Shown here: in pieces, positions 6,007-32,828 of the stretch | Layout of the letters: each line of letters opens with the position of its first letter | How positions within the stretch are numbered: the first letter of the stretch is position 1 | Assembly: GCA_030428945.1 (NCBI GenBank) | Contig: JAUIEC010000020.1 | Coordinates: 1-64,000, forward strand | DNA from: Phycisphaerae bacterium | Lineage (GTDB): Bacteria; Planctomycetota; Phycisphaerae; UBA1845; Fen-1342 | Reading direction: 5' to 3' | DNA length: 64,000 nt | Made by a program: the position numbers and the translations under genes | The notes under the pieces: generated by a model | Databases searched by the model: none | What the model saw: the letters and a program-made list of their open reading frames with translations, nothing else | What the model was told of the DNA's origin: nothing

Positions 6007-6042
6007 CAAGGCGGCGCATCTAGTTGAGGATGTGGACGAATC

Positions 6043-7523: not shown

Positions 7524-7527
7524 GACG

Positions 7528-8184: not shown

Positions 8185-8194
8185 CCGTTGATCA

Positions 8195-11239: not shown

Positions 11240-11257
11240 AATTGACGGGACGAGCAC

Positions 11258-14200
11258 ATGGCGAAGTCAAATCACGCACGCGTCGGCGACGGGTTGGAAT
11301 TGCTCAACAAAGGGCTGAAGCCGTTCGTCGAACGAGAGATGAAGGCCCAATACGCCGACAAGTGGACCGAGATCGTCCAGGGCGTTCTCGATAACAAGAC
11401 GCGCGGCGGCAAGAAGATTCATTGGGACACACAGGCGCTGCTAGCCGTCATGTGGGACCAATGGAACACGGTCTTCCGCAATACGTTGGGACCGGCTGAG
11501 CGATCGCTCGTTTCGGAGCTCCGAGACGTGCGCAACCGTTGGGCGCATCAGACCACGTTCAACAGCGATGACGCGTACAGGTCCCTTGACAGTGTCGAGC
11601 GTCTGCTGCTCGCTGTTTCCGCCGGCGACCAGGCGGAGAAGGCGAACGCCATCAAACACGAGCTGATGCGGACGCGCTACGACCAGCAACGCCGCGACGA
11701 GAAAAAGCGGATGGTCCCGATCGAGGGGCAGCCATCGGGAAACTTGCGGCCGTGGCGCGAGATTGTGGTGCCGCACAAGGATGTGGCCAGCGGCCGCTAT
11801 CAGCAAGCGGAATTTGCGGCTGACCTGTGGCAGGTCTATCAGAACGAAGCGGCCAGCGAGTATCAGCATCCGGTCGAGTTCTTCCGCCGCACGTTTATTA
11901 CAGGAGGCCTTCAGCAGTTGCTTGTCAACGCGTTGCGGCGACTGACCGGGGCCGGCGGCGATCCGGTCATCGAGTTGCAGACGAACTTCGGCGGCGGCAA
12001 GACCCACTCGATGCTGGCGCTTTGGCACATGCTCAGTGGAGCGAAGCCTGGCGATCTTGCGGGTGTGGACCAAGTAATGACCGAAGCCGAGGTCAAAGAG
12101 CTGCCGGAGGGCGTGAAACGCGCCGTCGCGGTGGGCACCAAGATCTCTCCCGGCAAGCCGAGCAAGAAACCCGACGGCACAGTCGTTCACACGCTGTGGG
12201 GCGAAATCGCGTGGCAGCTTGGAGGCAAGAAGGGCTACGAGATGGTGCGTGGTGACGACGAGAACGCCACGAACCCGGGGGACACGCTTAAGGAGCTCTT
12301 CAACAAGTTCTCGCCATGCCTGATTCTCATCGACGAGTGGGTCGCCTATGCACGTCAGCTCCACGAGGGCAGCGAGCTTCCAGCCGGCACCTTCGATACC
12401 CAGTTCACCTTCACCCAAGCGCTGAGTGAGAGTGCCAAGGCTGCGAAGAACACGTTGCTCGTCGTGAGCGTGCCTGCGTCGGACAACGAGATCGGCGGTC
12501 AGTGGGGCCAGCAAGCGCTATCACGCTTGAAGAATGCTCTGGGTCGCGTGGAATCCTCATGGCGACCCGCCAGCCCAGATGAAGGCTTCGAGATCGTGCG
12601 GCGCCGGCTCTTTGAGCCCATTACCGACAGCAAACTGTTTTCCCAGCGCGACCTCGTCGCCCGCACGTTCGTCGACATGTATGGCTCGCAACAGAATGAG
12701 TTTCCATCGGAATGCCGCGAAGCTGAATACGAACGTCGAATCAAAATGGCGTATCCGATACATCCTGAGCTCTTCGACCGGCTTTACAACGACTGGTCCA
12801 CGTTAGACAAGTTTCAACGCACCCGCGGCGTGCTGCGACTCATGGCTGCGGTCATCCACGGGTTGTGGGAACGGCAGGACAGCAACCTGCTCATCATGCC
12901 GGCCAATGTCCCCATCGACGACCCGAACGTCCGGTTCGAATTGACTCGATACCTCGAAGACCAATGGGACGCCGTTATTAGCAAGGACGTGGATGGCGAG
13001 CAATCGCTGCCGTTGGGCTTGGATCGGGAGAACCCGGGCACGCTCGGGCGTTACTCCGCAAGCCGTCGGGTCTCTCGAACGATTTACATGGGATCAGCCC
13101 CCATCCAGAAGGCGGCCAATCGCGGAATCGACGAACGACATGTCAAACTCGGATGTGTGCAGCCTGGCGAAGCGGTTGCGACGTTCGGCGATGCGCTGCG
13201 CCGGCTCACTGACAAGGCGACGTATCTGTACGTCGACGGGAATCGCTACTGGTATTCGACGCAGCCGACAGTGACGCGGCTTTCGGATGACCGCGCAACA
13301 CAACTCCATGAGCACGACGTGATTGACGAGATCGTGAAGCGGTTGCGCAAAGAGGCCGCCTACCGCGGCGACTTCAGCAAGGTTCATGCGTGCGTGTCGA
13401 GTAGCGATGTGCCTGACGATCGGGAAGCACGCTTGGTCATCTTGGGCCCGGAGTTCCCGCACACAAAGAACCAGGAAGACAGCTTGGCCCGCCAGGAAGC
13501 TCACGCGATTCTCGACATGCGCGGCTCCAGCCCGCGCAACTACCGCAACACGCTGGTGTTTCTGGCCGCTGATTCGACTAGGTTGAAGGAGCTGCAGCAA
13601 GCGGTGCGGCACGCACTCGCGTGGAGCTCTATCTGGACGGACCGGGAGCAACTGAACCTTGACAACTTCCAAACGAAGCAAGCTGAGACAAAGTCTCGCA
13701 ACGCTGATGAAACCGTGAAAGCGCGGATTCCCGAAGCGTACCAATGGCTGCTGGCGCCAAGTCAGCCCGACCCCAAGGCTCAGCCGGAGTGGATCGAATT
13801 GCGACAGCAAGGGCAGGAACGGCTTGCTACTCGCGCATCCAAGAAGCTCACGAATGAGGAACTGCTACTTGTGCAGCTCGGCGGAACTCGACTGCGGCTT
13901 GAGCTTGACCGCGTGCCGCTCTGGCGCGGCGACCGCGTCTCTGTCAAACAGCTTCTCGACGACTTTGCGACATACTTGTATCTGCCCAGGCTTCAGAATC
14001 CCGACGTCTTGATTGCTGCAATCCGTGACGGAGTCAGCCGGTTGACGTGGGAGTCGGACACCTTCGCATACGCCGATGCGTGGGAAGCCAAGGGTAGTAG
14101 ATTCACGGGACTCCAGGCTGGCTCAACTATCCGTGTCATTGCAGATGGCGAAAGCATTCTTGTAAAGCCCGCAGTCGCCAAGGCACAGCTGCAAGCTGAC

Positions 14201-14587
14201 GCAGCTCAGGCCGCCACCGCCACGCACTCGGCGGAAGGTGAGATGCAGACCGCTGACGGTCAAGGCGAAGTCACATCGACTACCGGTTCAGGAGAGTCTG
14301 GCGACCGTGGCAGGCCGGAGGGCGATCAGACGACGGAGCCGGTCAAACCAGAGTATCGACGTTTCTACGGATCCGTCAGACTCGATTCCTTGCGAGCTGG
14401 ACGCGACGCGTCTCGCATCGCCGATGAAGTTTTGCAGCATTTGACCAAGCTGGTGGGGGCAGACGTCGAGGTCACGCTTGAAATACAAGCACAGCTTCCG
14501 GAGGGCGTTTCGGATAAGACGGTTCGAGACGTCACTGAGAATTGTCGTACACTCAAGTTCGATCCGTTTGGCTTTGAGGAAGCTTAG
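11258..14587 (+). CDS. DUF499 P-loop ATPase with N-terminal HEPN (Swt1-like) domain
   Basis: A 1109-residue protein. Residues 1-115 form a HEPN-like helical domain with the RNase-type motif RNRWAH (Arg92 to His97). An AAA-like ATPase follows: Walker A GGGKTH (245-250) and Walker B LILIDEW with Asp359-Glu360. DUF499 proteins pair with DUF1156 methylases in defence islands. The C-terminal 150 residues contain a Gly/Ser/Thr-rich linker and a small domain. It is the last gene of the operon; its TAG overlaps by four bases the stop of the convergent gene on the minus strand. The HEPN motif suggests RNA cleavage as one output, but activity is not shown. Confidence 0.9.
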   Translation: MAKSNHARVGDGLELLNKGLKPFVEREMKAQYADKWTEIVQGVLDNKTRGGKKIHWDTQALLAVMWDQWNTVFRNTLGPAERSLVSELRDVRNRWAHQTTFNSDDAYRSLDSVERLLLAVSAGDQAEKANAIKHELMRTRYDQQRRDEKKRMVPIEGQPSGNLRPWREIVVPHKDVASGRYQQAEFAADLWQVYQNEAASEYQHPVEFFRRTFITGGLQQLLVNALRRLTGAGGDPVIELQTNFGGGKTHSMLALWHMLSGAKPGDLAGVDQVMTEAEVKELPEGVKRAVAVGTKISPGKPSKKPDGTVVHTLWGEIAWQLGGKKGYEMVRGDDENATNPGDTLKELFNKFSPCLILIDEWVAYARQLHEGSELPAGTFDTQFTFTQALSESAKAAKNTLLVVSVPASDNEIGGQWGQQALSRLKNALGRVESSWRPASPDEGFEIVRRRLFEPITDSKLFSQRDLVARTFVDMYGSQQNEFPSECREAEYERRIKMAYPIHPELFDRLYNDWSTLDKFQRTRGVLRLMAAVIHGLWERQDSNLLIMPANVPIDDPNVRFELTRYLEDQWDAVISKDVDGEQSLPLGLDRENPGTLGRYSASRRVSRTIYMGSAPIQKAANRGIDERHVKLGCVQPGEAVATFGDALRRLTDKATYLYVDGNRYWYSTQPTVTRLSDDRATQLHEHDVIDEIVKRLRKEAAYRGDFSKVHACVSSSDVPDDREARLVILGPEFPHTKNQEDSLARQEAHAILDMRGSSPRNYRNTLVFLAADSTRLKELQQAVRHALAWSSIWTDREQLNLDNFQTKQAETKSRNADETVKARIPEAYQWLLAPSQPDPKAQPEWIELRQQGQERLATRASKKLTNEELLLVQLGGTRLRLELDRVPLWRGDRVSVKQLLDDFATYLYLPRLQNPDVLIAAIRDGVSRLTWESDTFAYADAWEAKGSRFTGLQAGSTIRVIADGESILVKPAVAKAQLQADAAQAATATHSAEGEMQTADGQGEVTSTTGSGESGDRGRPEGDQTTEPVKPEYRRFYGSVRLDSLRAGRDASRIADEVLQHLTKLVGADVEVTLEIQAQLPEGVSDKTVRDVTENCRTLKFDPFGFEEA

Positions 14588-15231
14588 GATGCTCCATAAG
14601 ACTGCTTGAACGGCGAAACCACCCGCCTACGCAGTCTAAGCACAGTCATCGGAATCTGCACTTTTCCGCTCTGTTTCCTACAGTGATTGACTGCTCGCAG
14701 CAGATTGAGCAACTGCCGCCGAACTGGGGCATACGGCTCAAAGGCCAGCATCCGGAACTCCTGCGTCACTTGGTCCGCCGATCGGCGCGAGGCGAGCTCA
14801 AGGAGGTGCGCCTTGATCCGCACGTAGGTCTCTTGGTCAATCCGAACGGACGCCCGTTCATTGCGGCGGCTAACGCTGTAGCCAGCGTACCTTATCGGTA
14901 CTCGACGTGCGTCCCGAATCTGTCCCGCCTCATCTTCGAAGAATGCATGATTGCCGTGCGTGGCCATCATCAGGAAGACGCGGTTGTGTCGGATGTACTG
15001 CATGTTCGCCAAGCCTGCTTTCTTTCGCCTCACGCGTTCCCAGCGCGGCGTGTCGATGCGGTACTTTTCGATGAGCTTGCGATCGACGCGCCGCGGATCC
15101 TTGTGCGGTGGAATTCGGCCCGCAACATAGAACCAGTACCCGCGAGCCAGGTAGGCGACGGCAACCTGTTGGATGAACCCGGCGACGCTCGTCGCCTCGC
15201 AACGATACTCTTGCCCTTTTCGACTTCGCAT
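14584..15231 (-). CDS. Unrecognised basic protein, module copy 1 (paralogue of 24139-24825)
   Basis: I chose ATG 15231 because it has a purine-rich site (AAGGGGGC) and because homology to the second copy starts there; the frame extends upstream to 15345 without support. The 215 residues share about half their positions with the copy at 24139-24825. Conserved blocks are YRCEATSV, RRKKAG, AN(M/V)QY(I/L)RH, the strand AT-x-G-x-H-x-FF, IRYAGYSVSRR, FEPYAP(V/I)RRQLLN and a terminal RLRRRVVSPF. It is rich in Arg and Lys, so nucleic-acid binding is plausible. It lies downstream, on the same strand, of a 1.18-kb structured RNA, as does the other copy. No known family is recognised. Confidence 0.9.
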   Translation of the reverse strand: MRSRKGQEYRCEATSVAGFIQQVAVAYLARGYWFYVAGRIPPHKDPRRVDRKLIEKYRIDTPRWERVRRKKAGLANMQYIRHNRVFLMMATHGNHAFFEDEAGQIRDARRVPIRYAGYSVSRRNERASVRIDQETYVRIKAHLLELASRRSADQVTQEFRMLAFEPYAPVRRQLLNLLRAVNHCRKQSGKVQIPMTVLRLRRRVVSPFKQSYGAS

Positions 15232-15529: not shown

Positions 15530-15600
15530 AACGTCAACCTCCATCGCACATCGTGAACCTCCTTTCGCGCAACGGCCGCACGCCACTCGTGTGCGAGCGT

Positions 15601-15635
15601 GGCGGCGCAACTTGTTTCCCAAGTTGTACGCCGCC
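15601..15635 (-). other. Terminal hairpin of RNA copy 1
   Basis: On the minus strand, GGCGGCG then a TA bulge, CAACTTG, loop GGAAA, CAAGTTG and CGCCGCC form a 14-bp stem. The second RNA copy ends in a hairpin of the same design at 23805-23832, with a bulge beginning TA at the same place and a TGAA loop. This is why I include it in the RNA rather than treating it as an operator. Confidence 0.65.
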
Positions 15636-16776
15636 ACTAATAGAGTGCAGCACTAACGCACAGACTCGAACCTCTGTCGAAAACCCGACGCGTACGCGTC
15701 GACCTCAACAACAGCCCATCGCCACACGCGGCCCGCGCTCCCGCGCAAGCCGCGTGTGACCACGTTTCCACCTCGCCAGAGGACCTATGCGGCGCAGTCG
15801 CACAAGCCGCCGACACAGATGAGCAGATACCCGTCAGCCCTTTCGTCGTCGCAAGGCATCCGGCACCACCCGGACGCGCGAACGGTCCGCCACTGCCCTG
15901 CAGCGGATTCCGTCTCGCCAAGAGCGAGCTTCTACTCAGGCCACACTCCCACTCTGCAGCGTTTGAAGCACGCGGCTGACCAAGCCGCGCACCGGGCACC
16001 ACCCCGGCGGCTGCAGAGCTTCCCGGATTAGCAGCAATCGTTCACCAATCAGTCACGTCGCTAGACCGTGTTACCGGCCGGACCTGCACCGTACGCACAT
16101 GGCTCCCGCCATGGCGCAGTTTCCGCCGCGCTTGCGCGCAGCGATTTCAGCGGGCCGAAACAAGAAGCACCCGCTTACCCGTCAGTGCAGATTTTTCGCG
16201 GTTTGGCACCGTCTCTGATTGGTGTGACCAGCAAGCCCTTGCGGGCCTTTCATGGTTGAGCTTTTCGCCGTCCGCCGTTTCGGCGGATCGCCGGACCCGG
16301 TCAAGGGTCCGGTCCTGGCCGTCGCCGGCTCAGGAACTCCCCACGCTGGCCGAGGTTGAACGAGCCTATCGAGCCTTTCACCCGATTAGGTCCACAACAT
16401 GGCAGACTTCGGCCCGAACCCCCTGGATAGGATTTGGTCTAGGAGACCTCACCTACTTCGACTGCTACGGCCTCGCCAAGCCAAGTACGACTGACCGGAC
16501 GAGGCGTGTCTCCGTCGCCCCATTTCGCAATGTCACTCCCCCCCGGAGCCATATCGGATAGAACTGCAGGATTACTCGGAGTTCCGGATTACTCTGCAGA
16601 GCCTCCGTCGAGCCGGACAAGCGCGTCTCCACGCATCCGGCTCTACGGGTCAGCATCATGGCGGTTGGTGAAGTCCGCCCCCTTAGCCCGACTGGTGAGG
16701 TCGGGTTTGCCGGGTGATGCCGTCCCATCTGTACGGCGTCACGGAACGTGTTGACGTTCGTCGTAACGACGACGGG
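15601..16776 (-). ncRNA. Large structured non-coding RNA, module copy 1 (about 1.18 kb)
   Basis: Read on the minus strand, this gene-free stretch aligns end to end with 22655-23832. Unpaired blocks are conserved (CAACCTCGGCCAG, GCGAAAAGCTCAAC, GAGACGGTGCC, CTAGCGACGTGA, CTAATCCGGGAAG, GACGACGAAAG), while stems between them differ in sequence yet still pair. Examples are the CCCGAC/GTCGGG stem (16687-16705), CCGGACCC/GGGTCCGG (16291-16312), CCGCCG/CGGCGG (16272-16286), the outer stem CTCTGCAGC/GCTGCAGAG (15952-15960 with 16010-16018) and GNRA-capped stems at 16125-16143, 16234-16247 and 16313-16335. The 3' end is a hairpin at 15601-15635. It lies between the cupin gene and the small MGWW gene. 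No Rfam class was recognised by eye. Confidence 0.85.
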
Positions 16777-16786
16777 CCGAAGCCCG
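16773..16786 (-). terminator. Short GC hairpin between cupin gene and RNA copy 1
   Basis: CGGGC-CGAA-GCCCG forms a five-base stem just downstream of the cupin stop at 16791. There is no T-run, so termination here is uncertain and the RNA could be co-transcribed with the cupin gene. Confidence 0.3.
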
Positions 16787-16790
16787 TGAG

Positions 16791-17435
16791 CTATGCGTAG
16801 CGTACTTCGGCCGTCAGGTCACGTGGCCGCCAAACGCAATCAGGAACCGTGTATTGGCGGTCATCATCGAATGCGATCGCCGGGCTGTGATATGAGAGAA
16901 GCAGCAGATCTTCCTTCGGCGCGCTGAAAGTGTGTAGGAGGTGCCGCGTGAACATCAGCACGTCGCCGACATGCACGGAGATGTGCCGCACATCCGAGCC
17001 CGTGAATCGGTCAAGCTGCTCGTTCGAGACATGGAATACGCCGCTGCCAGAGAGCACCACGATCAGCCGGTCGGAATGCTCGTGGGCATGAATCGGCAAA
17101 TCGAGCGTACCTGCCCTGAACCGCAACTTGGCGATGCCATCACAGCGGTCAGGACCGGCAATGTCAGCTCCGAGCCAGAGACCGCCGGCGATGCTGTCCA
17201 CTCCTTCGAATGGGGCCTTCAGGTCGATGGGTCGGTCTCGTTCAGCATGATCGAGCAGCGCGCCCAGCGTCCCTCCGTCCAATGCTCCAAAACGCAACCA
17301 GCGCTTCGCGAAGTGCTCGCCGCCAGCATCGCTCATGAAGAAACCGAGGCTGCGATCCAGCAGCTGAAACAGCTGCATTAGCGGCGACGCGATCGAATCA
17401 CTCTGTCGCCCAACCGGTTTCAACGCCGTAAGCAT
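16791..17435 (-). CDS. Cupin-domain protein
   Basis: ATG 17435 has an ideal ribosome site (GGAGG, seven-base spacing), giving 214 residues; the open frame continues to 17555 without a better start. The centre has the cupin signature: HAHEHSDRLIVVLSG (metal-binding His and Glu positions), then HVGDVLMFTRHLLHTF with the second-motif His. The N-terminal 90 residues are helical. Cupins range from enzymes to sugar or metal sensors, and nothing here fixes the substrate. It is divergent from the membrane-protein gene at 17535 with about 100 bases between them, and RNA copy 1 follows on the same strand. Confidence 0.8.
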   Translation of the reverse strand: MLTALKPVGRQSDSIASPLMQLFQLLDRSLGFFMSDAGGEHFAKRWLRFGALDGGTLGALLDHAERDRPIDLKAPFEGVDSIAGGLWLGADIAGPDRCDGIAKLRFRAGTLDLPIHAHEHSDRLIVVLSGSGVFHVSNEQLDRFTGSDVRHISVHVGDVLMFTRHLLHTFSAPKEDLLLLSYHSPAIAFDDDRQYTVPDCVWRPRDLTAEVRYA

Positions 17436-17534
17436 GGAAAGTCCTCCATTTGGCCGTCCAGCGCGTCGGCCACGCCGCCGCCGCATCCAAATGTTTGGTA
17501 CTTGTACGGTACGCGGAGGTGGCGTCAAGCGCAA

Positions 17535-18140
17535 ATGGCCGAGAACTTTCAACAATCTCAGCGCGGACTCAGGAGCGAGACGCGCGTCCCAATCCTGCTG
17601 GCCGAATACCGGGCGCTGTACGACCTACTCCGCCTACGGCTCGACGCCATGGACCGCCGGGTCCCGCTGGCCGCCGGCACCCTCGGTGCAGTATTGGCCG
17701 GCATACCCACGATGCCACCGACATCACAGGTAGTGATGCTCGTGCTCCACCCGGCGAGCGTGGCTTGGCTGGTCGCCTCGGCAGCCGGACACGCCAGATC
17801 GAAAGAGGACCACCTGCGCCGCATCGCCGAAATCGAGGTTGCGATCAACGAGTTTGTCGGTGCCGAACTCGTCGCGTTTCAATCACGCCACCCTGGTCGC
17901 GGGCGATTTGTCAGCGGCCGCAGCGGCCGCATCAGCGTGCTCGCCACGGCCACGGGATCGCTCGCCGCGCTCCTCTGTTGCGGCGCATTCTTCGAGGCGA
18001 CTCACCCGCCACCGGTCAGCCTTATGGCATATTGGGCGTATCTATCGGGAATCGCGTTCGGCATCGCTGCCACGCTCCTTCGACTTCGGCACTACCGCTA
18101 CGTGAAGGCGCCGCCGGCATCGAGGCTGATTCTGCCATGA
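17535..18140 (+). CDS. Predicted membrane protein, function unknown
   Basis: ATG 17535 gives 201 residues (MAENFQQSQRG...). Hydrophobic stretches at about residues 45-85 and 130-185 suggest four membrane segments in two pairs, separated by a charged helix containing RSKEDHLRRIAEIEVAINEF. The C-terminus is basic. It shares an intergenic region with the divergent cupin gene and is followed by an XRE regulator. I do not recognise the family. Confidence 0.7.
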   Translation: MAENFQQSQRGLRSETRVPILLAEYRALYDLLRLRLDAMDRRVPLAAGTLGAVLAGIPTMPPTSQVVMLVLHPASVAWLVASAAGHARSKEDHLRRIAEIEVAINEFVGAELVAFQSRHPGRGRFVSGRSGRISVLATATGSLAALLCCGAFFEATHPPPVSLMAYWAYLSGIAFGIAATLLRLRHYRYVKAPPASRLILP

Positions 18141-19310: not shown

Positions 19311-20566
<1,256 letters not shown>

Positions 20567-22654: not shown

Positions 22655-23832
22655 GGGTTGTCAGTAACGGACAACGTTTCTGACGCTTCAGTGACGGGCG
22701 ACGACACCCGGCAAACGTGGCTTAACCACCCACGCTAAGGGATGCAGGAATTACCAACCTGCGAAAGAGCGTTACCTGTAGAGCACAGTGCCGCGAGAGT
22801 GGCTTGCTGTGTTCGAGGAGGGCTCCTGGAAGTAAAGCCCAATTGGGTCAATCTTCAGGTTCTACTCCATGGAATATCGGTGAACGATTGGGCGACGGAG
22901 AAAAACCTCGTCATTGTCGGGCTCGCACACGTGCGAGCTGATGGATGGCGAGGCCGTAGTCGGAGAAGTGGGTGAGCGACGCGAGGTAATCGCGTTGCAA
23001 ATCCCCCCAGGGGGTTCGGACCAAACCGCGGCGATTCGCCCGCGGAAGTCGGGTGAAAGTCTCGTAAGGTTCGTTCAACCTCGGCCAGTGCCGGGAGTCA
23101 GCGTTTGGCGACAAACGCTGCCGGGCTTGTGACCAAGCTCGGGGACCGCATTAAACGTGCGGCTACGAAAAGCTCAACGGTGAAAGGGGCGAAAGCCCTT
23201 ACTGGTAAGTTCATGCGGAGACGGTGCCGAACCGCGAAAACCGCTCGCCTTCGATAACCTGAGCTTCTGGTTTCGTAAGGTGAAATCACGAGCGACATCG
23301 CTCGTGGAAAGTGCAGTCGAACGGGAGTTTGACTGGCATGGCGGGTGGCAGGCCGCAACATAGGGCCTAGCGACGTGAACGCATGAACGTAGACGACTAC
23401 TAATCCGGGAAGGTCTTGAGCGGCCGGGGTGGTTCTCGGTGCGTGGCTTTGGTCGGCCACGTGATTCAAATGCTCAAGACTGGGAGTGGGCCGCAAGTAG
23501 ACAGCCAGGCGGGAGCCTGGGCGGTGTCCGTGGCAAGGCAGTCACGGTCCGTTCCAAGCTCACGGGTGGTCCCCGTGAGCGAGTAGGACGACGAAAGCGG
23601 CGACAGGTTGCGATAGACCTGTCACTGAAGTGTGCCGGCTCCGCCGTTGTGGCGGAGTCGGTCTGCTGGTGCAAGCTGGAACGTGGTCACACGTGCAACG
23701 CCGGGGACGGCGTGGCACCTGTGGCAACGGAATGACAACGAACGAAACGCGTGTGCGTTGGGTTCGTTGAGGTTGTATCGGGTGCAAGGCGTATGAATTG
23801 GCGGGGGCCTATTTGGTTGAAACCAGTGGCCC
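22655..23832 (+). ncRNA. Large structured non-coding RNA, module copy 2 (about 1.18 kb)
   Basis: This aligns with the minus strand of 15601-16776 over its whole length. Shared unpaired blocks include CAACCTCGGCCAG, ACGAAAAGCTCAAC, GAGACGGTGCC, CTAGCGACGTGA and CTAATCCGGGAAG. Stems pair with different bases from copy 1: GTTGTC/GACAAC (22657-22675), CGTGG/CCACG (22716-22734), a nine-pair stem with GCGA loop (23099-23120), GCTTG/CAAGC (23125-23138), CCGCA/TGCGG (23146-23162), a GAAA-capped stem (23185-23200), CACGAGC/GCTCGTG (23287-23306), and GTCTTGAGC/GCTCAAGAC (23413-23421 with 23472-23480) enclosing CGTGGC/GCCACG. It ends with the hairpin at 23805-23832. Conserved GNRA loops suggest tertiary contacts. 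Identity with a known giant RNA class could not be tested. Confidence 0.87.
23805..23832 (+). other. Terminal hairpin of RNA copy 2
   Basis: GGGCC, a TAT bulge, TTGGT, loop TGAA, ACCAG and GGCCC. The design matches the hairpin ending copy 1 (15601-15635): two stacked stems, a bulge beginning TA on the 5' side and a short A-rich loop. The bases of both stems are different. Confidence 0.6.
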
Positions 23833-24138
23833 ACGCAAACGCCTGAACACGTTCTCGCAATTTGAGGGCGTGCGGATGGTGGAGCAACTGAGGCATGAGG
23901 CGATAGCGGGACGGAGACTCCGAATCGAGCGGCAAAATGATTGCCCGATTCGTTGCAGGCTCCGAAGGATAAATGCTGTGATTCCCGCAAGTCGAATATG
24001 CCAGTGAATGCTCCTATCTGGAGCACTGTCGATGGCGAGTCATTCCGCCAGCGAGCAAAGGTCTTTTGAGGCTTCGAGGGGTGAGCCGTAATCACTCCTC
24101 ATTTTTTTTTGTTCAACCTGCACAGCGACAGGGGCAGT
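23833..24138 (+). other. Linker between RNA copy 2 and the module protein gene
   Basis: No MGWW-type gene is found here, unlike copy 1. A 69-codon frame at 23798-24007 overlaps the terminal hairpin and has no family features, so I do not call it. The main recognisable feature is a terminator-like hairpin with T-run at 24077-24110, only 28 bases before the protein gene. Confidence 0.5.
24077..24110 (+). terminator. Terminator-like hairpin and T-run between RNA copy 2 and protein gene
   Basis: GAGGGGTGA and TCACTCCTC pair around a short loop and are followed by ATTTTTTTTT. This is a good Rho-independent terminator on the plus strand. It would end the RNA transcript just before the ATG at 24139, so the protein would be made by read-through, from a second promoter or under attenuation. 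Confidence 0.7.
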
Positions 24139-24825
24139 ATGCGGTATCGTTGCGAGGCGACTTCGGTCGTCGGGTTCATTCAGCAATTGGTCAACTATGT
24201 GACCAATGGCTACATCTATTTCGTGATGGGAACCGTGCCGAAACGGAAGGAGCCGCACGAGCTCGACCGAAAGATGGTCGAGAAATACGACCTGGACATA
24301 CGGGAATGGACCCGTGCCCGCCGCAAAAAAGCGGGACGAGCAAACGTGCAATATCTCCGGCATGGCCGGTTCTTTGTGCTCGTGGCGACGCCCGGCGAGC
24401 ACCTGTTCTTCTGCGAGGAGAACGGGGAGGGGAAGCTCTTCCGCGACGCCCGGCGGCATTCAATCAAATTTGCGGGATACTCCGTAAGCCGTCGTCGGTC
24501 GCACGACGGAAGCTCGTGGCATACGCACGTGCGAATTGACCGCCGGGCATACGCCGAACTCAAGGCGTATCTCGTGGGCCTTGCCCGCAAGCGAACGGTC
24601 GAGAATCTCGCCCGCGAGCTCCGGCTTGTTCAGTTTGAGCCGTACGCCCCGATTCGTCGGCAATTACTCAACATTCTCCGGGCGATGAATCGCGAGCGAA
24701 AGTCACGGGGATTCGAGCCGGTGCCAACTTCGGCCCTCCGCTTTCGTCGCCACGTCGTAAAACCGTTTGATGCGAAGCCAAATCAGGCGGCCGATTCTTC
24801 GGCATCGCCGCGGATGTCGGCGTAG
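24139..24825 (+). CDS. Unrecognised basic protein, module copy 2 (paralogue of 14584-15231)
   Basis: ATG 24139 (MRYRCEATSV) has AGGGG four bases upstream and matches the start of the paralogue; an upstream ATG at 24109 lies inside the terminator T-run. It has 228 residues, 13 more than copy 1 because of insertions near residues 95 and 125 and a longer tail. The conserved blocks are those of copy 1. Arg and Lys are abundant throughout, suggesting nucleic-acid binding. The last 43 bases overlap the end of the convergent hsdR gene. Repeated linkage to the structured RNA suggests a ribonucleoprotein partner; no enzymatic motif is seen. Confidence 0.92.
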   Translation: MRYRCEATSVVGFIQQLVNYVTNGYIYFVMGTVPKRKEPHELDRKMVEKYDLDIREWTRARRKKAGRANVQYLRHGRFFVLVATPGEHLFFCEENGEGKLFRDARRHSIKFAGYSVSRRRSHDGSSWHTHVRIDRRAYAELKAYLVGLARKRTVENLARELRLVQFEPYAPIRRQLLNILRAMNRERKSRGFEPVPTSALRFRRHVVKPFDAKPNQAADSSASPRMSA

Positions 24826-27800
24826 ACCTCGCGAGAAAGATGCTCAGTGACGAGCTTCTGAAAATCCTTATCATTCATGAACTTCGCGAAGAGCTCTTCG
24901 TTCTGCTCCATCCGGTCGATGAACAGCCCTTCGAGTGCCTTGTCAAAAACGAATCGGAAATTCTCGATTGTGTTTGCGACAGCGGCTTGCCGCAGATTGC
25001 CGTCGGCAACGGCTTCTTCGCGTATCTGGTTGAAGAATAACTCGTCAGCCTTGGTGAAGTCGGTTCCGAATCGTTCGTTAATCTGCTCGATGATACTCGA
25101 CAATTCGACCTTTGGGCTCTCGCCCTTGCCTGTTCCGACGGCCGTCGGCCCTTTGACCTCACCACCTTCGCCGGATTCAAGTTTGATGGAGCCTTCGCTG
25201 ATTTTCTGAAGGCGGTAGAACTTGAGAGTGACCTCATCGTCGAATTGATATTGTGGCCCGGTCGCTCGTCGCGGGAGCTTGGACAACAAGAATCGTGCGT
25301 AAGTGTAGAGCTTCTCCAAGTCGGAATCCTGAAACGGGATGACTTGGGAAAGAAACGAATAGAGATTTCGGAAGGCAATCAGCACTCCTCGAAACTCCTC
25401 GCGGTCATCCTCTTCAAGCTCCTTGAATCGCGTAACCGCCAAATCGATGATAGCGTTTATTTTGCCGTGGTCGTTGGGCGTCTGCACGGCCTTCTGCTTG
25501 AAGAACACCTTGCAGAAATCTTCCACCTCACTGCGGTGATAGATATGCTGTTCGTCAAGCTTGGCTTGTAGGTCGTAGAGTTGTCGCGGGTCCGCCTCCT
25601 CGCCGACGTGCGTCACCTCATAGTACGGCTTGAACGCCTCGAAGATTTCATCGGGCTTATTGACAAAGTCGAGAACGAACGTGTCTTCCTTTCCGGAGCA
25701 CGTTCGGTTGAGCCGCGAAAGCGTCTGCACGGCCTGAATTCCGGCAAGCCGCTTATCGACGTACATCGTATGCAATAGCGGTTGGTCGAAGCCTGTCTGG
25801 TATTTCTCCGCGACGATGAGCAAGCTGTATTCGTCCGTCGCGAATTTGTCGGTAAGTTGCTTCTCGGGAAGGGCCTTCCCGTCCTCGCCTCGGTTCATGT
25901 CCGGCTCGGTGTAGCTCACGCCGGTCACGTCGGGGTCTTCGACGGTTCCCGAAAACGCGACAAGCGTTTTGATGTCCGCGTAGCCCTTTTCTCGAATTTG
26001 TTTGTCGAACTCCTGCTTGTAGCGAACGGCATGAATCCGGGAGCCCGTGACCACCATCGCCTTCGCTCGCCCGCCAATCTTATGCCGCGTGAACGTGCGG
26101 AAGTGCTCCAACATGACTTCGGTCTTCTGGGCAATGTTGTGCGGGTGCAAGCTCATGAATCGAGCGAGTGCCTGAGCGGCCTTTCGTTTGTCCACCTCGG
26201 GGTCATCCTCGATGGACTTGATGAGTTTGTAGTAGGTGCGATAGGTCGTGTAATTCTTCAACACGTCGAGGATGAAGCCCTCGTCGATGGCCTGACGCAT
26301 GCTGTAAAGGTGAAACGGGTGCGGCTTGCCGTCGGCCCCGGTCGTGCCGAATACTTCGAGCGTCTTGTATTTGGGCGTCGCCGTGAAAGCGAAGAAGCTG
26401 ATGTTCGGCTGCCGGCCCCGCTTGAGCATCGTCTTGAGGATTTCCTCCTCGTGGTCGGGCAAACCCTCGGCGGCGGCCTGCTCCTTGGCCTGCGCTTTGA
26501 TGCTGTTCGCGGCGAGCACACCCTTGAGTTCGGTTGCACTCTCGCCGGATTGCGAACTATGGGCCTCATCGACGATGACGGCGTAGCGGCGGTCCGGCAA
26601 TCCGCCAACCTTTTCGGTGACGAACGGGAACTTCTGAAGCGTCGTGATGATGATAGGCGTGCCGGACTTGAGTGCATTGGCGAGTTGAGTCGAGTCCTCG
26701 TCTATTTTTTCGACGACGCCCTGGCGGTGCTCGAACTGATAAATCGTGTCCTGAAGCTGGCGGTCGAGCACGACGCGGTCGGTAATAACGATGACCGAGT
26801 CGTAGACCTTCTCATCCTGGTCGTTGTGCAGACTGGCGAGGCGATGAGCCAGCCAGCCGATGGAATTGCTCTTTCCGCTGCCAGCGGAGTGCTGAATCAG
26901 ATAGTTGCTGCCGACACCTCTTTGCCGAGCGTCGGCTTCTAGTTTCCGCACGGAGTCAAGCTGGTGGTAGCGGGGAAAAATCATCGTCTCTTTGCGGATT
27001 TTCCGCCCGCCGACTTTCTTCTCTTCGACTTGCAAGTGGGTGAATCGAGCGAGAATGTCGAGCAGCGAGTCGCGTTGCCACACTCGTTTCCATAGATAGG
27101 CCGTCTTGTAGCCGTTGGGATTCTCCGGGTTGCCGGCTCCCGTGCCATCGCCGAGATTGAAGGGCAGAAAGAACGTCTTCTTTCCGTCGAGCCGCGTGGT
27201 CATGTAGACCTCGTCGGGGTCTACGGCGAAATGCACAAGTGAACGCTTCTTGAACTCGAAGATTCGCTCACGCGGGTCACGGTCGGTGCGGTATTGATGC
27301 TTCGCGTGCCCGACGTTCTGCCCGCTCATCGGGTTTTTGAGTTCCGCCGTGACTACCGGAATGCCATTGAGGCTGAGCACCACGTCAATCGAATTCTCGT
27401 TGCTCGTGCTGTAGTGCAGTTGTCGCGTTACCGTGAGCCGATTGGCGGCGTAGAGCCGAGCCGTGTCGGGGTTCATGCTATGGGCCGGTGCGAAGTAGGC
27501 GACACGAATGAGCTTGCCGAAGCATTTGAAACCGTGGCGTATGACGGCGAGCGAGCCTTGCGAGTCCATCGCCTTGCACAAGTCGTCGAGCACGACGGCT
27601 TCGGTTTCCGTCCCGTGTAGCTTCTCCAAGCTATCCCATGTATCCGACTGGGTTTCTTTGATAAACGGAATGAGGACCGTCGGGTCTATGGCTCGTTCGC
27701 GGTCGAAATTCGTTGGGTCGGTTTTCGAATAGCCAGCAACGTTGAGCAAGTGATGCTCAACGGCGTCTTCAAAGGCGATTTCACGATGGTCAATTGGCAT
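24783..27800 (-). CDS. hsdR: Type I restriction endonuclease subunit R
   Basis: ATG 27800 gives 1005 residues (MPIDHREIAFEDAVEHHLL); an in-frame start at 27902 would run into hsdS. The nuclease motif is Asp139 then Glu153-Leu-Lys155 (TAELKN). The helicase motor follows with Walker A SAGSGKS (Lys310) and DEAH at 411-414, and later SF2 motifs such as YQTGFDQPLLHTMYVDK. The helical C-terminal region for binding the methylase core is present. Its start lies 19 bases downstream of the hsdS stop in the operon recombinase, OLD-like nuclease, hsdM, hsdS, hsdR. It looks intact. Confidence 0.95.
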   Translation of the reverse strand: MPIDHREIAFEDAVEHHLLNVAGYSKTDPTNFDRERAIDPTVLIPFIKETQSDTWDSLEKLHGTETEAVVLDDLCKAMDSQGSLAVIRHGFKCFGKLIRVAYFAPAHSMNPDTARLYAANRLTVTRQLHYSTSNENSIDVVLSLNGIPVVTAELKNPMSGQNVGHAKHQYRTDRDPRERIFEFKKRSLVHFAVDPDEVYMTTRLDGKKTFFLPFNLGDGTGAGNPENPNGYKTAYLWKRVWQRDSLLDILARFTHLQVEEKKVGGRKIRKETMIFPRYHQLDSVRKLEADARQRGVGSNYLIQHSAGSGKSNSIGWLAHRLASLHNDQDEKVYDSVIVITDRVVLDRQLQDTIYQFEHRQGVVEKIDEDSTQLANALKSGTPIIITTLQKFPFVTEKVGGLPDRRYAVIVDEAHSSQSGESATELKGVLAANSIKAQAKEQAAAEGLPDHEEEILKTMLKRGRQPNISFFAFTATPKYKTLEVFGTTGADGKPHPFHLYSMRQAIDEGFILDVLKNYTTYRTYYKLIKSIEDDPEVDKRKAAQALARFMSLHPHNIAQKTEVMLEHFRTFTRHKIGGRAKAMVVTGSRIHAVRYKQEFDKQIREKGYADIKTLVAFSGTVEDPDVTGVSYTEPDMNRGEDGKALPEKQLTDKFATDEYSLLIVAEKYQTGFDQPLLHTMYVDKRLAGIQAVQTLSRLNRTCSGKEDTFVLDFVNKPDEIFEAFKPYYEVTHVGEEADPRQLYDLQAKLDEQHIYHRSEVEDFCKVFFKQKAVQTPNDHGKINAIIDLAVTRFKELEEDDREEFRGVLIAFRNLYSFLSQVIPFQDSDLEKLYTYARFLLSKLPRRATGPQYQFDDEVTLKFYRLQKISEGSIKLESGEGGEVKGPTAVGTGKGESPKVELSSIIEQINERFGTDFTKADELFFNQIREEAVADGNLRQAAVANTIENFRFVFDKALEGLFIDRMEQNEELFAKFMNDKDFQKLVTEHLSREVYADIRGDAEESAA

Positions 27801-27819
27801 AGCACTCAGTCTCCGTCGG

Positions 27820-28662
27820 TTACTCGTCAGCCAAGCCTGCGGCGACAGACATGCCTGCGGCGGCGCCCGGCGAGGTGGCGCTCTTGCTAAGCCTACATAC
27901 ATCTATCTTGCCCGTGACGGCACTACTAACAATCGTCTCTCTTTGCTCCGCCAACAATCGAACGAGTTGCGTTATTAGACCGTCGCCTGAAGTGTCCGCG
28001 GTAAGGCCGGCCACAAGTCGGTCAATCCGCTTTGTTTCACGACGCAAGAAAAGAGCGATTGCCCGTTGCTCCTGTAGTGGAGGTACTGGAAATATCGCAC
28101 TGGAAATGTGGTCTCTCGAAAGACCGAAGCGAGTAATCCCATTGGCTGCTACACGAAATTGGTCGCGAATCGCATGTGAGGCAAATGCACGAAACAGATA
28201 TTCGCCATCCACAACGTCTTCGTATGGTCGAATCTGTGCCAAGTGGTATCCGCATAAGACGCCTTCGAGATTACGGTCTACAAAGGCCGGAACCGCGATA
28301 TCGTCCCACGTCTCAGAGTCCTTCGTGATAAGCACGTCGCCTTTTCGCAGCGAAAATCGACGAATCTCATCTACGGTTGCTGTGGCACGCATGAACTCAA
28401 CAGACTCGGTGATGTACTCGTTGTAATACACGTCCACATAGTTGCAGAGCAAAACGGCTTGCTCATCATCATGACTTTTCTTGTCAACGTTGCTGTTTCG
28501 AATGGACGCTAGGTACTTGAGTTTGCGAATCGTCCAATGCTCCGGTATGTCTCCAAGCCAACGGGCATCGCTCGGGCGACAGGTGGCATATTCAGGGAAG
28601 CTGCGAATTGCCAAAGGCTCGCTTGATGTCGTGGCGGTCACGATGTGCTGAGCCGAACTCAT
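27820..28662 (-). CDS. hsdS: Type I specificity subunit, half-length
   Basis: A 280-residue HsdS with a single target-recognition domain. Features are WLGDIPEHWTIRKLKYLASI at the domain start, the central GDVLITKDSE, and one conserved helical spacer with PPLQEQRAIALFLRRET and IVSSAVTGKI. Ordinary HsdS proteins have two such repeats and around 400 residues or more. A half subunit would have to dimerise, predicting a symmetric recognition sequence. It overlaps the hsdM stop by four bases. Confidence 0.92.
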   Translation of the reverse strand: MSSAQHIVTATTSSEPLAIRSFPEYATCRPSDARWLGDIPEHWTIRKLKYLASIRNSNVDKKSHDDEQAVLLCNYVDVYYNEYITESVEFMRATATVDEIRRFSLRKGDVLITKDSETWDDIAVPAFVDRNLEGVLCGYHLAQIRPYEDVVDGEYLFRAFASHAIRDQFRVAANGITRFGLSRDHISSAIFPVPPLQEQRAIALFLRRETKRIDRLVAGLTADTSGDGLITQLVRLLAEQRETIVSSAVTGKIDVCRLSKSATSPGAAAGMSVAAGLADE

Positions 28663-30713
28663 CCAACGACCTCCTGTAGTTTGTTTAGTAATTGATTTGT
28701 TACGGACGAGATGTCTGCTTCTATCGACTCAATCTTGCGTGGCGGCCTGTACTCATAAAAGTGTGTGCGGTAGTACAGCTCGTACCCGACAATGCCGACT
28801 TGACCGTCTTTCGCGTCCCGCTTGTGTTCGTCAATCCAGGCGTCGGGAACGTGCGGCTTTACCTCGCGGTCAAAGTACTCGCGGATGTCCTCCTTGAAGG
28901 GCACGTTCTCGTAATCGCGAAGCTCCGGGTCGGGTTCGGGGTTGTCGTCCTTGTCCGTGCAAACGTCAGCCGATTCGTCGCGTTCTGAGAGTACGGCGAT
29001 AATCGCCTTCTTGATGGGGGCCGACGCCTTTACATCCGCCGTCTTCAGCACGTCGGTAAGGTCGTCGAGAAACGCCTCGCGATTCTTGTAGACCTTAGAT
29101 GCATCGAGGGTCGCCAGTGCTTTGATGATGGCATCCTGAAGTTCGCGGCCGGCCACGATTTCAGCGTCTGCCGCTTTGGAGCCATTCTTTTTCTTGCTCT
29201 TGGCGAGATTCTGAAACGCCTTCACGTCGCGGAGCGATTCGATTCGCTCGGGCGTGGCTTGAAAGCTCAAACGCAGTGGCCGTTCGACTGTGATTTTGCG
29301 AAAGGCAAAGTCTTCATTATCGAACACCTTTGACCGGCCATTGTTGATAACGCCTCCGTAGAGTTGCGTGATGTCGGCGATGTGGTCGGGCTTGTTGTCC
29401 TTGCCGTCGCCAATCTCATGCCGCTTGTTACCCAGGCTCTTTCGCATCTTCTGGTAGAGGTCCACGGCGTTAATGAGTTGGACCTTGCCGTGACGCTCCT
29501 TGCGTTTGCGGTTGGTAACAATCCAGACGTACGTGAAGATGCCGGTGTTGTAAAAGAGTTGGTCAGGCATGGCGACAATGGCTTCGAGCCAGTCGTTCTC
29601 GATAATCCAACGACGGATTTCGCTTTCACCGCTACCGGCATCGCCCGTGAAGAGCGGCGAGCCGTTGAACACGATGGCGATGCGAGAACCGCCCTGGTCG
29701 GCCGGCTGCATTTTGGAAATCATGTGCTGTAGAAAAAGAAATGAGCCGTCGTTGATGCGGGGCACACCCGCACCGAAACGGCCGTCGAAGCCTTGAGTCT
29801 CGGCCTCCTTGCGAATCTCGTCCTCGTCCGGTTTCCATTCAACGCCGAACGGCGGATTGGCAAGCATGTAATCGAACTTCTCGCGGGGCAGGGCGTCCTT
29901 CGAGAAGCTGCTGCCGAAGGCGATGTGCTCGATGTCGTGGCCTTTGATGAGCATATCGGAGCCGCAGACTGCATACGACTCCTTGTTCCAGTCCTGGCCG
30001 AAGACTTCAAGCTGGGCGTCTGGGTTTAGCTCGCGGAGATACTCGTCGGCAACGGCAAGCATGCCGCCGGTCCCGCACGCCGGGTCATAGAGCGTCTTGA
30101 CGATGCCCTTCTTCGTGAGGATGTCGCCGTCCGGCTCGAAAAGCAGATTGACCATAAGCCGGATGACTTCGCGAGGCGTGAAGTGGTCACCGGCGGTCTC
30201 GTTGGCGGCTTCGTTGAACTTACGGATGAGCTCCTCGAAGATGTAGCCCATGTCCGTGTTTGGAACCACGTCGGGATGCAGGTCGATGTCGCAGAACTTC
30301 GAGACAACGAGAAAGAGCCGGTCGGCCTCGTCGAGCTTGGCAATTTCGGCCTCAAAGCCGAAGTAGTCGATGATTTCGCGAGCCTTGGTCGAGAAGCTTT
30401 TGATGTAGCGGGTGAGGTTGGCGGCGACTTTGTCCGGTTCGCCCTTGAGCTTCTGAAAGTCGAGCCGGCTCGTGTTGTGAAACGGAACCTTGGCGATGCG
30501 ATTCAAAATCGGCTCGACGTTTCCGACCTTCCCGCCTTTGAGGCTCGCCGCCTTGGCGAGCACCTTCTCCTTTGTTGGCTCCAACACACAGTCGAGGCGA
30601 CGGAGAACGGTGAGTGGCAGAATCACGCGACCATACTGAGCGGGCTTATACGGCCCGCGAAGTAGGTCGGCGACCGACCAAATGAAGCTGACTTTATCGC
30701 TGAAGTTGTTCAT
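28659..30713 (-). CDS. hsdM: Type I DNA methylase subunit M
   Basis: A 684-residue N6-adenine methylase. The HsdM N-terminal helical domain comes first, then SAM motif I DPACGTGG (210-217) and catalytic motif NPPF (286-289). It is longer than typical HsdM (about 500-550 residues): the extra length is a C-terminal extension after residue 500 containing a Lys-rich stretch and a helical DVLKTADVKASAPIKK region. It starts 16 bases after the OLD-like gene and forms the core methylase with hsdS. Confidence 0.95.
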   Translation of the reverse strand: MNNFSDKVSFIWSVADLLRGPYKPAQYGRVILPLTVLRRLDCVLEPTKEKVLAKAASLKGGKVGNVEPILNRIAKVPFHNTSRLDFQKLKGEPDKVAANLTRYIKSFSTKAREIIDYFGFEAEIAKLDEADRLFLVVSKFCDIDLHPDVVPNTDMGYIFEELIRKFNEAANETAGDHFTPREVIRLMVNLLFEPDGDILTKKGIVKTLYDPACGTGGMLAVADEYLRELNPDAQLEVFGQDWNKESYAVCGSDMLIKGHDIEHIAFGSSFSKDALPREKFDYMLANPPFGVEWKPDEDEIRKEAETQGFDGRFGAGVPRINDGSFLFLQHMISKMQPADQGGSRIAIVFNGSPLFTGDAGSGESEIRRWIIENDWLEAIVAMPDQLFYNTGIFTYVWIVTNRKRKERHGKVQLINAVDLYQKMRKSLGNKRHEIGDGKDNKPDHIADITQLYGGVINNGRSKVFDNEDFAFRKITVERPLRLSFQATPERIESLRDVKAFQNLAKSKKKNGSKAADAEIVAGRELQDAIIKALATLDASKVYKNREAFLDDLTDVLKTADVKASAPIKKAIIAVLSERDESADVCTDKDDNPEPDPELRDYENVPFKEDIREYFDREVKPHVPDAWIDEHKRDAKDGQVGIVGYELYYRTHFYEYRPPRKIESIEADISSVTNQLLNKLQEVVG

Positions 30714-30729
30714 CCCGTGGGCCGCTCCG

Positions 30730-32784
30730 TCATTGGTCGTTGAATCGTGCGTTTATGGCAGCAAACAGGGCGGACGCACTCTGCCGCGTGTCGTCGGGAA
30801 TGCTCTTTGGGTCCTGGCCCCACGCGGCAACAAGGTTCAACGCCGCTGCGGCTTTGTGCTCGGCACCAAACTTCCCATGGTTCCCTCGCTGAAATGCCTT
30901 CTCGGCCGCTGCGACATTCGTGGGGGCCTTCTCTTCGTCGGAGTTGAATTTGATTTTGTAGCCGCAATCTGTGAGTGCCTTTGCATAAACATCTCTGGGC
31001 ACCAAGTCCTCGATTGTGGCCTTCTCCATTTTTATGGCTGGACCGAGCATCAAGATTCGCGAATCGTCGCCTGCGAAAAGGTCTTTCTGAACACGAGTGG
31101 CAGCCTGCAATCCCTCATTGTCGCTGTCGAGCAACACAAGCAATTGGCGACCGCCGACGCCCGCTGTACCGAACATGATGGAAGCGAGAGGCATGAGCTT
31201 GCTCGTACCACCAGCCGGAATGAGTATCGTATCTGGGTGTAGGTGATTCTTGTCGTCGCCGGGCAAGCAATCATCAAGGGCCTTCAAGAGCCAATAGTCC
31301 GTGATACCCTCTACAATCACCGAGCGTTTCCCAAGAAAAAGCGTCTGGGCAATCGAGTAGCCGACCGCGGCTTGAAGCGGAAATAGAGTGTCCTTGTCCC
31401 CGGTCGGCCGGATATCATTAGATACAACTGTCTTCTGTGGGTCCGGCCCAGAAAGGTGAACAGTCCGGACCCGCTCCAGGTGGTTGCCATCAACCAAAAA
31501 CGGCAAGTGAGTGCTGTAGATGAGTTGGTTCGTCTCAGAAATGCGTTCAAAAAGCTCGATAAGCTTGGCCTGAAGCGTTGGATGTAGATGGAGCCCTGGC
31601 TCATCGAGAAGTAATACCGCTCCCTTGTGGGCCTTTTTCGATTCGACGAGAAACACGAGATAAAATGAAAAGAACCACTGGAGGCCGTGGCTGCGTTCTT
31701 CGAAAGGGATTGGGAATTGGCTGTGGTCGTCGGATACTTTGAGAACAAGGTCCTCGCCGTCCGCGTCGAAATGAAGGTTGTGTCGCTTCTCTGACCACCA
31801 ATCAATCCAGTCGCCGGTCAACCCAAAGGACGCTGAATCTAACAATGCACGTCGCTTTTCCTTGCGTCTTTGAACTACCTCGTCAGCTTCGTTGTTCTCA
31901 CGTGCCTTACCAAGCTGGAGTATTTCGGCTGGGTCGAGATGGCTCCATTCGAATAACGCAGTCTGCGTTCTAGTTTTTTCGTCCGGGTTGCCACGACGTT
32001 GTTGATACTGTGGAAGGTGAATACGGGTCTCAAGCTGCCCATACTCGTCGAAGTAAATGAAAATGGGCATGTTATCAACTACCCATTTCCTCGCTTTCGC
32101 GGACGGGTCACCCTGTTTCGCATTGGCCAGCACCTCGTCAAGAGTCTTTAGTTCCTTTGTGGCGACGTTGACCCGAGATTCATCGCCCGCAAGCCAACTT
32201 GCCGCGGCCGTTTGAAATGACGTGAGACCCTGAACGGTTGTTGGTTCCCAAAGGGGCGATTCCACCTCGATTTTTGCGAGGGCCGCAGTTGCGGCATTAG
32301 TCACGGCATCGGTGTCACCGGCAGCCGCCTTCGTGATTGCGTTCGACACATTCTGGAGAGCGGATGCGGCAGCCGACGAATCCAGGCGAGACTTCGCCTC
32401 CAATTTGTCCTCAAAAGAGACAAGGGCAAACGTCTCATCCTCGCCCTTGTAATAGGTGGTGAACACCACTTTCTTCGGCTTTGCCTTGAAGCTTGGTGGG
32501 AATTGGTTAGCGAGAGCCTTGCTTTCTTCAGACGACAGTTCAAATTCTAGGGATGCGACCTCCTGCGTCTCCTTTCGCTCCCTAGCGTAGCGGTCACGTG
32601 GATAGTCGAGGAGTTTGTCGAATGTCTTGTCGGATACATTCTTGCTCTTCCATAAGGACCGCAAGATGCCGGTCTTGCCGGCTTCGTTTTTGCCGACGAG
32701 GGCAGTTACACACTTATCGACGGGCACCCAATCGGTGTCGTCGATGACTTTGTAGTTTTGCACTCGAAATCGTGTGAGTTTCAT
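30730..32784 (-). CDS. OLD-family-like ATPase/TOPRIM nuclease in the hsd operon
   Basis: A 684-residue protein with an ABC-type ATPase of the AAA_15/AAA_21 kind: Walker A GKNEAGKT (31-38), a long helical insertion, and Walker B with GAVLLLDEPGLHLHP. A TOPRIM nuclease domain follows with VIVEGITDYW and LLVLLDSDNEG, whose acidic residues bind metal. This is OLD architecture, like Gabija GajA, but no GajB-type UvrD helicase is nearby. Its position inside the type I operon recalls restriction-linked ATPase genes of other hsd loci. It probably adds a second anti-phage activity. Confidence 0.85.
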   Translation of the reverse strand: MKLTRFRVQNYKVIDDTDWVPVDKCVTALVGKNEAGKTGILRSLWKSKNVSDKTFDKLLDYPRDRYARERKETQEVASLEFELSSEESKALANQFPPSFKAKPKKVVFTTYYKGEDETFALVSFEDKLEAKSRLDSSAAASALQNVSNAITKAAAGDTDAVTNAATAALAKIEVESPLWEPTTVQGLTSFQTAAASWLAGDESRVNVATKELKTLDEVLANAKQGDPSAKARKWVVDNMPIFIYFDEYGQLETRIHLPQYQQRRGNPDEKTRTQTALFEWSHLDPAEILQLGKARENNEADEVVQRRKEKRRALLDSASFGLTGDWIDWWSEKRHNLHFDADGEDLVLKVSDDHSQFPIPFEERSHGLQWFFSFYLVFLVESKKAHKGAVLLLDEPGLHLHPTLQAKLIELFERISETNQLIYSTHLPFLVDGNHLERVRTVHLSGPDPQKTVVSNDIRPTGDKDTLFPLQAAVGYSIAQTLFLGKRSVIVEGITDYWLLKALDDCLPGDDKNHLHPDTILIPAGGTSKLMPLASIMFGTAGVGGRQLLVLLDSDNEGLQAATRVQKDLFAGDDSRILMLGPAIKMEKATIEDLVPRDVYAKALTDCGYKIKFNSDEEKAPTNVAAAEKAFQRGNHGKFGAEHKAAAALNLVAAWGQDPKSIPDDTRQSASALFAAINARFNDQ

Positions 32785-32828
32785 CCTGTCCTCTCAAGCA
32801 TCAACATCAAACGCTGTGAATACGAATC

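Follow-up and report, generated by a model that had tools for sequence, protein, structure and literature searches.

Two predicted circularly permuted group II ribozymes with co-oriented AcpG-family genes in a Phycisphaerae genome

Introduction

Circularly permuted (CP) group II RNAs are defined, in the main text of Roth et al. (2021, PMC8637638), by a domain order in which D5 and D6 precede D1. A linker, 15–86 nt long in the published examples, separates a 3' splice site (3'SS) ending in NU from a 5' splice site (5'SS) GGGCG, and the branch-point adenosine is bulged (PMC8637638). The class, still little understood, is predicted to excise tiny RNA circles, one of 32 nt in the species that carries pPNAP05. 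A protein termed AcpG, of unknown function and without detected homology, is encoded near these RNAs frequently but not obligatorily, in mixed orientations and with absences (PMC8637638). That text leaves open both the nature of AcpG and a possible dependence of CP ribozymes on a protein.

Here we analyse a 64,000-nt stretch of a Phycisphaerae bacterium genome (GCA_030428945.1, contig JAUIEC010000020.1, positions 1 to 64,000; hereafter the window) that holds two diverged copies, A and B, of a structured RNA (Table 1). The best explanation of the whole is very probably a CP group II ribozyme followed by a co-oriented gene for its partner AcpG. As in the published T-large RNAs, the order is D5–D6–linker–D1, the splice motifs are GGGCG and NU, the branch adenosine is bulged, the linker is short, no reverse transcriptase (RT) lies inside and acpG is nearby (PMC8637638). 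The window RNAs differ in being about 1.18 kb long, against about 0.9 kb for those in the published text, and in belonging to a clade of Planctomycetota, a name absent from the main text of PMC8637638. At the loci examined, AcpG is almost always encoded downstream and co-oriented, in contrast to the published arrangements.

Two diverged copies of a structured RNA

Aligned end to end (22655–23860 of the plus strand against 15561–16790 of the minus strand), the two copies are identical at 708/1161 columns (61%), in agreement with the first-pass annotation, which had described an end-to-end match of two diverged copies. That annotation had also seen selection on RNA structure, and this is fully borne out. 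When further homologues are aligned (22–26 sequences, from relatives in the same family and order as the source genome), covariation is strong, and 102 of 150 predicted pairs have changed on both sides (18/30, 29/52, 32/45 and 23/23 in the four segments). Of the stems quoted originally, GTCTTGAGC/GCTCAAGAC lies in a 10-pair helix with both-sided changes at nine pairs in the family alignment, and CGTGGC/GCCACG overlaps a 6-pair helix in which all six pairs have changed in this way.

Shuffle and slide controls were applied to one segment of the four, the D1 core, where 98.2% of cells pair, compared with 80.8% after shuffling and 32–42% when the partners are slid. The covariation score of this segment is 0.525, against 0.188 in shuffled and 0.06–0.08 in slid alignments, and is reached by none of 500 shuffles. 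The pairing signal of the RNA far exceeds chance. Conservation is weak over the 3' 200 nt (copy A). The reported absence of a conserved frame holds within the RNA, where none was seen; a conserved reading frame does follow 3' of each copy (Table 1).

Circularly permuted group II architecture

The Rfam family for group II intron domains V and VI (RF00029) matches the two copies at 45.6 and 44.6 bits, above its gathering cut-off of 40. The matches start 124 and 131 nt from the 5' ends of the two copies, placing D5–D6 near the 5' end, and D1 lies downstream in both. Because D5–D6 sits upstream of D1, the class-defining order, both copies are, as judged from sequence, CP group II ribozymes, a known class. 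With RF00029, a recognised group II family, matched above the cut-off in both copies, the initial proposal of an unrecognised giant RNA class on the scale of GOLLD, ROOL or OLE is not upheld. GOLLD, ROOL and OLE are large structured bacterial RNAs, and none of them has an Rfam match in this region; Rfam holds no model that matches the whole RNA.

Table 1 Features of the two elements, in window coordinates
Feature	Position	Strand	Basis or remark
Copy A, CP group II ribozyme	22655–23832	+	Outer ends from first-pass annotation; whole-length alignment
Domain 5, copy A	22781–22814	+	AGC triad, GNRA-type loop, 2-nt bulge; RF00029 alignment
Domain 6, copy A	22817–22868	+	Predicted branch point is the unpaired invariant A 22864
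3'SS AU, copy A	ends 22870	+	Splice motif
Linker, copy A, predicted 19-nt circle	22871–22889	+	Rule in main text of PMC8637638
5'SS GGGCG, predicted D1 start, copy A	22890–22894	+	Aligned sequences, 26/26
D1 core, copy A	23068–23230	+	Covariance model R1, 52 pairs
Candidate EBS1 loop GGTTTC, copy A	23269–23274	+	Weak, post hoc
AcpG-family protein, copy A side	24139–24825	+	228 aa from ATG
Copy B, CP group II ribozyme	15601–16776	-	Whole-length alignment to copy A
Domain 5, copy B	16610–16643	-	RF00029 alignment
Domain 6, copy B	16555–16607	-	Predicted branch A 16559
Linker, copy B, predicted 32-nt circle	16521–16552	-	GGGCG begins at 16520
D1 core, copy B	16203–16366	-	D1 model match
Candidate EBS1 loop TGTTTC, copy B	16157–16162	-	Pairs 6/6 with linker end GAAATG
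AcpG-family protein, copy B side	14584–15231	-	215 aa from ATG; ORF open from 15345

The unpaired D6 adenosine, the predicted branch point, is invariant in 19 of 19 sequences, and GGGCG is present in all 26 sequences aligned at the 5'SS, two others having been set aside. Linkers of relatives measure 13–40 nt where they are unambiguous; in the subclade formed by L023, L025, L026, L028 and their kin, the linker is either very short or about 100 nt, depending on the GGGCG chosen. At a fixed register, the candidate EBS1 and the linker end (IBS1) form 4.5 of six pairs on average, modestly above the 4.07 of shuffled data, and 1.5% of 5000 shuffles reach 4.5; this test used a position picked post hoc and omitted four rows sharing the linker of L014 and two more repeats. 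The copy A candidate forms 4/6 pairs with its linker end. A position-free, optimised EBS scan did not rise above shuffles.

Canonical group II introns (RF00029) have D5, D6 and D1-type folds in common with the window RNAs, and probably the chemistry, whereas here the order is swapped, the splice sites are internal, GGGCG replaces GUGYG and no RT lies inside. The canonical D1–D6 order with a GUGYG 5' end is absent from both copies. The source genome contains three CP RNAs of this kind. Because its three RF00029 matches all lie in CP elements and its RT domain lies elsewhere, no ordinary group II intron was found in the source assembly (94.7% complete; 150 of 226 first-look RF00029 candidates scored). 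The single RVT_1 match of this genome is on another contig (G000:C7:34330-34965, L054), and D4 holds no RT ORF. The L054 ORF encodes a 545-aa reverse transcriptase with RVT_1 as its sole Pfam match.

Relatives of the RNA and distance from published members

Two covariance models were built from this clade, R1 for the D1 core and R2 for the stretch from D5 to the 5'SS. R2 lies upstream of R1 on the same strand, 95–261 nt away, at 37 of 40 loci searched, about half of them having supplied training sequences. R2 also matches pPNAP05, a plasmid with a published CP RNA (45.2 bits, E 4.6e-11), where it gives a linker of 32 nt, in agreement with the published prediction. It has no match to the Thermus CP RNA on pTT8, in which a motif search located the D6 end, a linker and GGGCGAC. 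With filters off, R1 reaches at best 10.1 bits on pTT8 and 15.0 bits on the first 40 kb of pPNAP05, the latter away from the RNA, and we take both as noise. Because R1 matches neither RNA, the D1 of this clade is far from those of pTT8 and pPNAP05.

By blastn the RNA is matched in 27 of 61 genomes, its own included, and by an R1 scan with strict filters in 7 of 294, again including its own; both counts are lower bounds. A blastn search of the RNA against plasmids gave no match. Two loci (L069 and L079) have a D1 core and acpG and no D5–D6 detectable even with filters off; these are presumably decayed or split elements.

A near-constant partner gene

Gene calling and clustering identified one protein family at 24 of 34 element loci and at none of 20 control stretches drawn from 11 of the same genomes. 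At the 23 loci with model coordinates the gene lies downstream on the same strand, 710–1537 nt past the D1 core, and both window copies are followed by a co-oriented member. The gene was missing from ten loci in this first survey (L059, L061, L062, L072–L075, L080, L082 and L086), in part through a limit of the method, because L059 meets a contig end and L161, apparently the same locus as L080, has the protein.

The association also holds when approached from the protein. A scan of a genome collection of 84,980 species with one peptide pattern yielded 82 loci, of which we kept 80, 12 of these being probably contigs already in the set. R2 is found upstream on the same strand at 67 of the 80 loci, and R1 on the same strand at 67 (one weak match). 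Where at least 1700 nt of upstream sequence is available, R2 is present at 64 of 66 loci, and both loci that lack it (L184 and L187) encode fragmentary proteins. The distance from the 5'SS to the protein gene is 837–5720 nt (median 1066). Titles of the 80 loci include Phycisphaerae, Gemmataceae, Isosphaera, Verrucomicrobia, Acidobacteria, Nitrospira, Nitrospinaceae, Thermoleophilia, Bdellovibrionales and Saprospiraceae, taxa that come mostly from metagenome bins, where misbinning is possible. The class is now found in genomes labelled as several phyla unnamed in the main text of PMC8637638. RNA and protein distances are correlated across 46 loci (Mantel r 0.35, above all 1000 permutations), a moderate value that would suit either an RNA and protein that do not always move together or saturated distances. 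What is new is this near-constant partner gene of the RNA in the loci examined.

On pPNAP05, the protein encoded next to the RNA is a match to the family (hmmsearch E 3.7e-7; hhalign probability 84.5, E 6.9e-6). When this protein was aligned with plasmid relatives, of which four had been found using the window protein, the resulting alignment matched the window family at E 2.6e-39 and the Thermus AcpG (TTHC007) at E 8.3e-14. By this profile-only link, the partner protein is a member of the AcpG family. Used as a single sequence, TTHC007 failed to match either the window family or the pPNAP05 protein, and its search of 61 genomes gave no match.

Among 53 matching plasmid records we inspected 13 loci. 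At 11 of these R2 matches no more than 1.3 kb from the gene, in two cases across the start of the circular record. RNA and gene are co-oriented at five (two cyanobacteria, a planctomycete, Planococcus and Pseudoalteromonas) and divergent at six in other Proteobacteria, an E. coli plasmid included; the Novacetimonas (L206) and Thermus (L190) loci had no R2 match. The class thus also occurs on small plasmids, E. coli's among them, some of which may be in the data supplement of PMC8637638. The E. coli plasmid with the AcpG relative and divergent CP RNA match is pFHI_NMBU_11_03 (L195); in total the protein is present in 10 plasmid records of E. coli. On a Calothrix plasmid (L204), one acpG is preceded by a pair of same-strand R2 matches separated by about 2 kb.

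Predicted fold of AcpG

Searches with 51 members against Pfam and PHROGs, with three against NCBIfam and with a profile against PDB sequences gave no convincing family match; a single member matches Pfam HIND (E 2.6e-4). AlphaFold models of the two window members have pLDDT values of 94.7 and 92.6 and were compared with 350,542 PDB chains using Foldseek. For the first model, six of the top seven places go to entries for group II introns or G2L4 RT, and the other, the sixth, to a viral RNA polymerase (best match E 1.0e-3, TM 0.47, rmsd 7.1). The top eight for the second are all bacterial RT entries, from retrons, group II introns, G2L4 and DRT9 (best E 1.2e-3, TM 0.22–0.36, rmsd 8–18), with Prp8 and spliceosome entries lower in the list (E about 0.9–1.8). 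The matched chain in each entry is taken to be the RT, as the entry names suggest.

Because the two models agree and the gene adjoins a group II ribozyme, AcpG is likely to be related to RTs and group II maturases, each single score being weak. With these proteins and Prp8 it would share a palm-and-thumb-like fold and the setting beside a group II ribozyme; unlike group II maturases and RTs, it has only about 215–228 aa, a YADD string in 0 of 51 members and no sequence-level match that we could find. A conserved β-hairpin (consensus QYLRHGRFFVLLATH) may occupy the place where YADD would be. In the parts of the literature available to us, we found no report that identifies AcpG with reverse transcriptases.

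A sizeable minority of our confidence goes to AcpG being unrelated to RTs, with fold matches that reflect chance or a generic architecture and a different role, for example in DNA binding or island regulation. Neither Foldseek search has a PDB match counted at E ≤0.001, the RT matches span TM values of 0.22–0.47 (query) and rmsd values of 7–18 Å, diguanylate cyclases also figure in the second list, and the sequence databases offer no convincing family. Such a coincidence would have to place RT-kind polymerases first for models of two different members, and beside a group II ribozyme. We lean towards AcpG being a stripped-down, catalytically dead descendant of a group II RT, retained as a dedicated maturase, in which case CP ribozymes would be two-part RNA–protein machines for back-splicing. 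We think it reasonably probable that AcpG acts as a maturase, one that binds the ribozyme and stabilises it.

Genomic setting

Both copies lie within a mobile defence region with TmtA-like, Hma, integrase, type I restriction and OLD/AriA-like ATPase genes. A TmtA-like gene followed by HmaB and HmaC homologues (377–14587) forms an Hma-type defence system that adjoins copy B, and a cupin-domain gene (16791–17555) is directly upstream of that copy. Between the two copies, a tyrosine integrase gene (19311–20566) overlaps at its 3' end a tRNA-Gly(CCC) of the opposite strand, an arrangement typical of island attachment. Beyond copy A, positions 24783–33812 hold the genes of a type I restriction system whose specificity subunit is short (280 aa), the OLD/AriA-like ATPase gene and a second integrase gene. 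Neighbouring families that recur, at up to six of the 34 surveyed loci, include tyrosine integrases, helicases, an IrrE-type peptidase, a helix-turn-helix protein and a cupin family, the last at six (for example L058:8273-9046). A search with the Hma protein gave HmaB relatives at three loci (L045–L047) on contigs classed as viral.

This setting, with Hma, type I restriction and integrase genes around both window copies and with relatives near integrases or on plasmids, would suit an RNA–protein pair that serves plasmids or integrative elements as a cargo or maintenance module, in defence, interference or stabilisation, with splicing as one step. We consider such a module rather unlikely, a location on mobile islands being typical of selfish cargo too. 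The reading we prefer overall is still a ribozyme accompanied by a degenerate maturase, located in the window on mobile defence islands.

Discussion

The sequences show the RNA structure, the domain order, the splice-site motifs, a near-constant association with the protein gene at the examined loci and the homology to AcpG; catalysis by the ribozyme, its co-transcription with acpG and the maturase role we infer. As in the published class, the usual group II active site would be assembled from D5–D6 and D1–D4. The bulged D6 adenosine (22864 in copy A) would attack before GGGCG (22890), generating a T-shaped, 2'-5' branched RNA, and the freed 3' end would then attack past AU (22870), so that the linker comes out as a small circle of 19 nt from copy A or 32 nt from copy B. 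Specifically for this clade, with acpG located 3' of the RNA and in the same orientation, co-transcription of the two would make the branched product the 5' leader of the acpG mRNA; back-splicing would leave this mRNA with a branched leader and free the small circle. AcpG, as a maturase, would bind and stabilise the ribozyme; encoded by an mRNA with a ribozyme leader, it could both assist its own ribozyme and be regulated by it.

It is highly improbable that the RNAs are functionless remains of ordinary group II introns whose fragments came by chance to stand in swapped order: domains of group II type with no reverse transcriptase inside, and two loci with D1 and no D5–D6, would fit such remains, but the same order recurs at 37 of 40 loci, compensatory changes run throughout, and splice motifs and a protein partner have been kept. 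Least probable of all is an unrecognised giant structured RNA class, to which the length of about 1.18 kb, the strong covariation and the lack of an Rfam model for the whole RNA would lend themselves, against a D5–D6 that matches RF00029 and splice motifs, domain order and partner gene that fit a CP group II ribozyme.

The near-constant pairing of RNA and protein gene, together with the fold hypothesis, makes both questions left open by Roth et al. experimentally testable. Should AcpG prove to be a dead RT, it would join Prp8 as a natural example of a group II maturase whose polymerase activity was lost and whose splicing role was kept, and CP ribozymes would be a bacterial parallel to Prp8 with the RNA core of the spliceosome, as specialists in back-splicing.

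Methods

The full alignment excludes duplicates (L001, L002 and L032), a fragment (L029) and two short sequences (L011 and L016). L017 and L027, in which the 5' half is unaligned, were left out of the segments, and the long-linker sequences L023, L025, L026 and L028 out of segment A1. Near-duplicates were dropped from segments A5 (4 of 26) and A6 (3 of 22). Three rows with local faults were kept, namely L005 and L030, poorly aligned where D5 begins, and L022, which is out of register in A3. Of the pairs that RNAalifold proposed in segment A1, we did not adopt the four that join the 5' stem to GGGCG.
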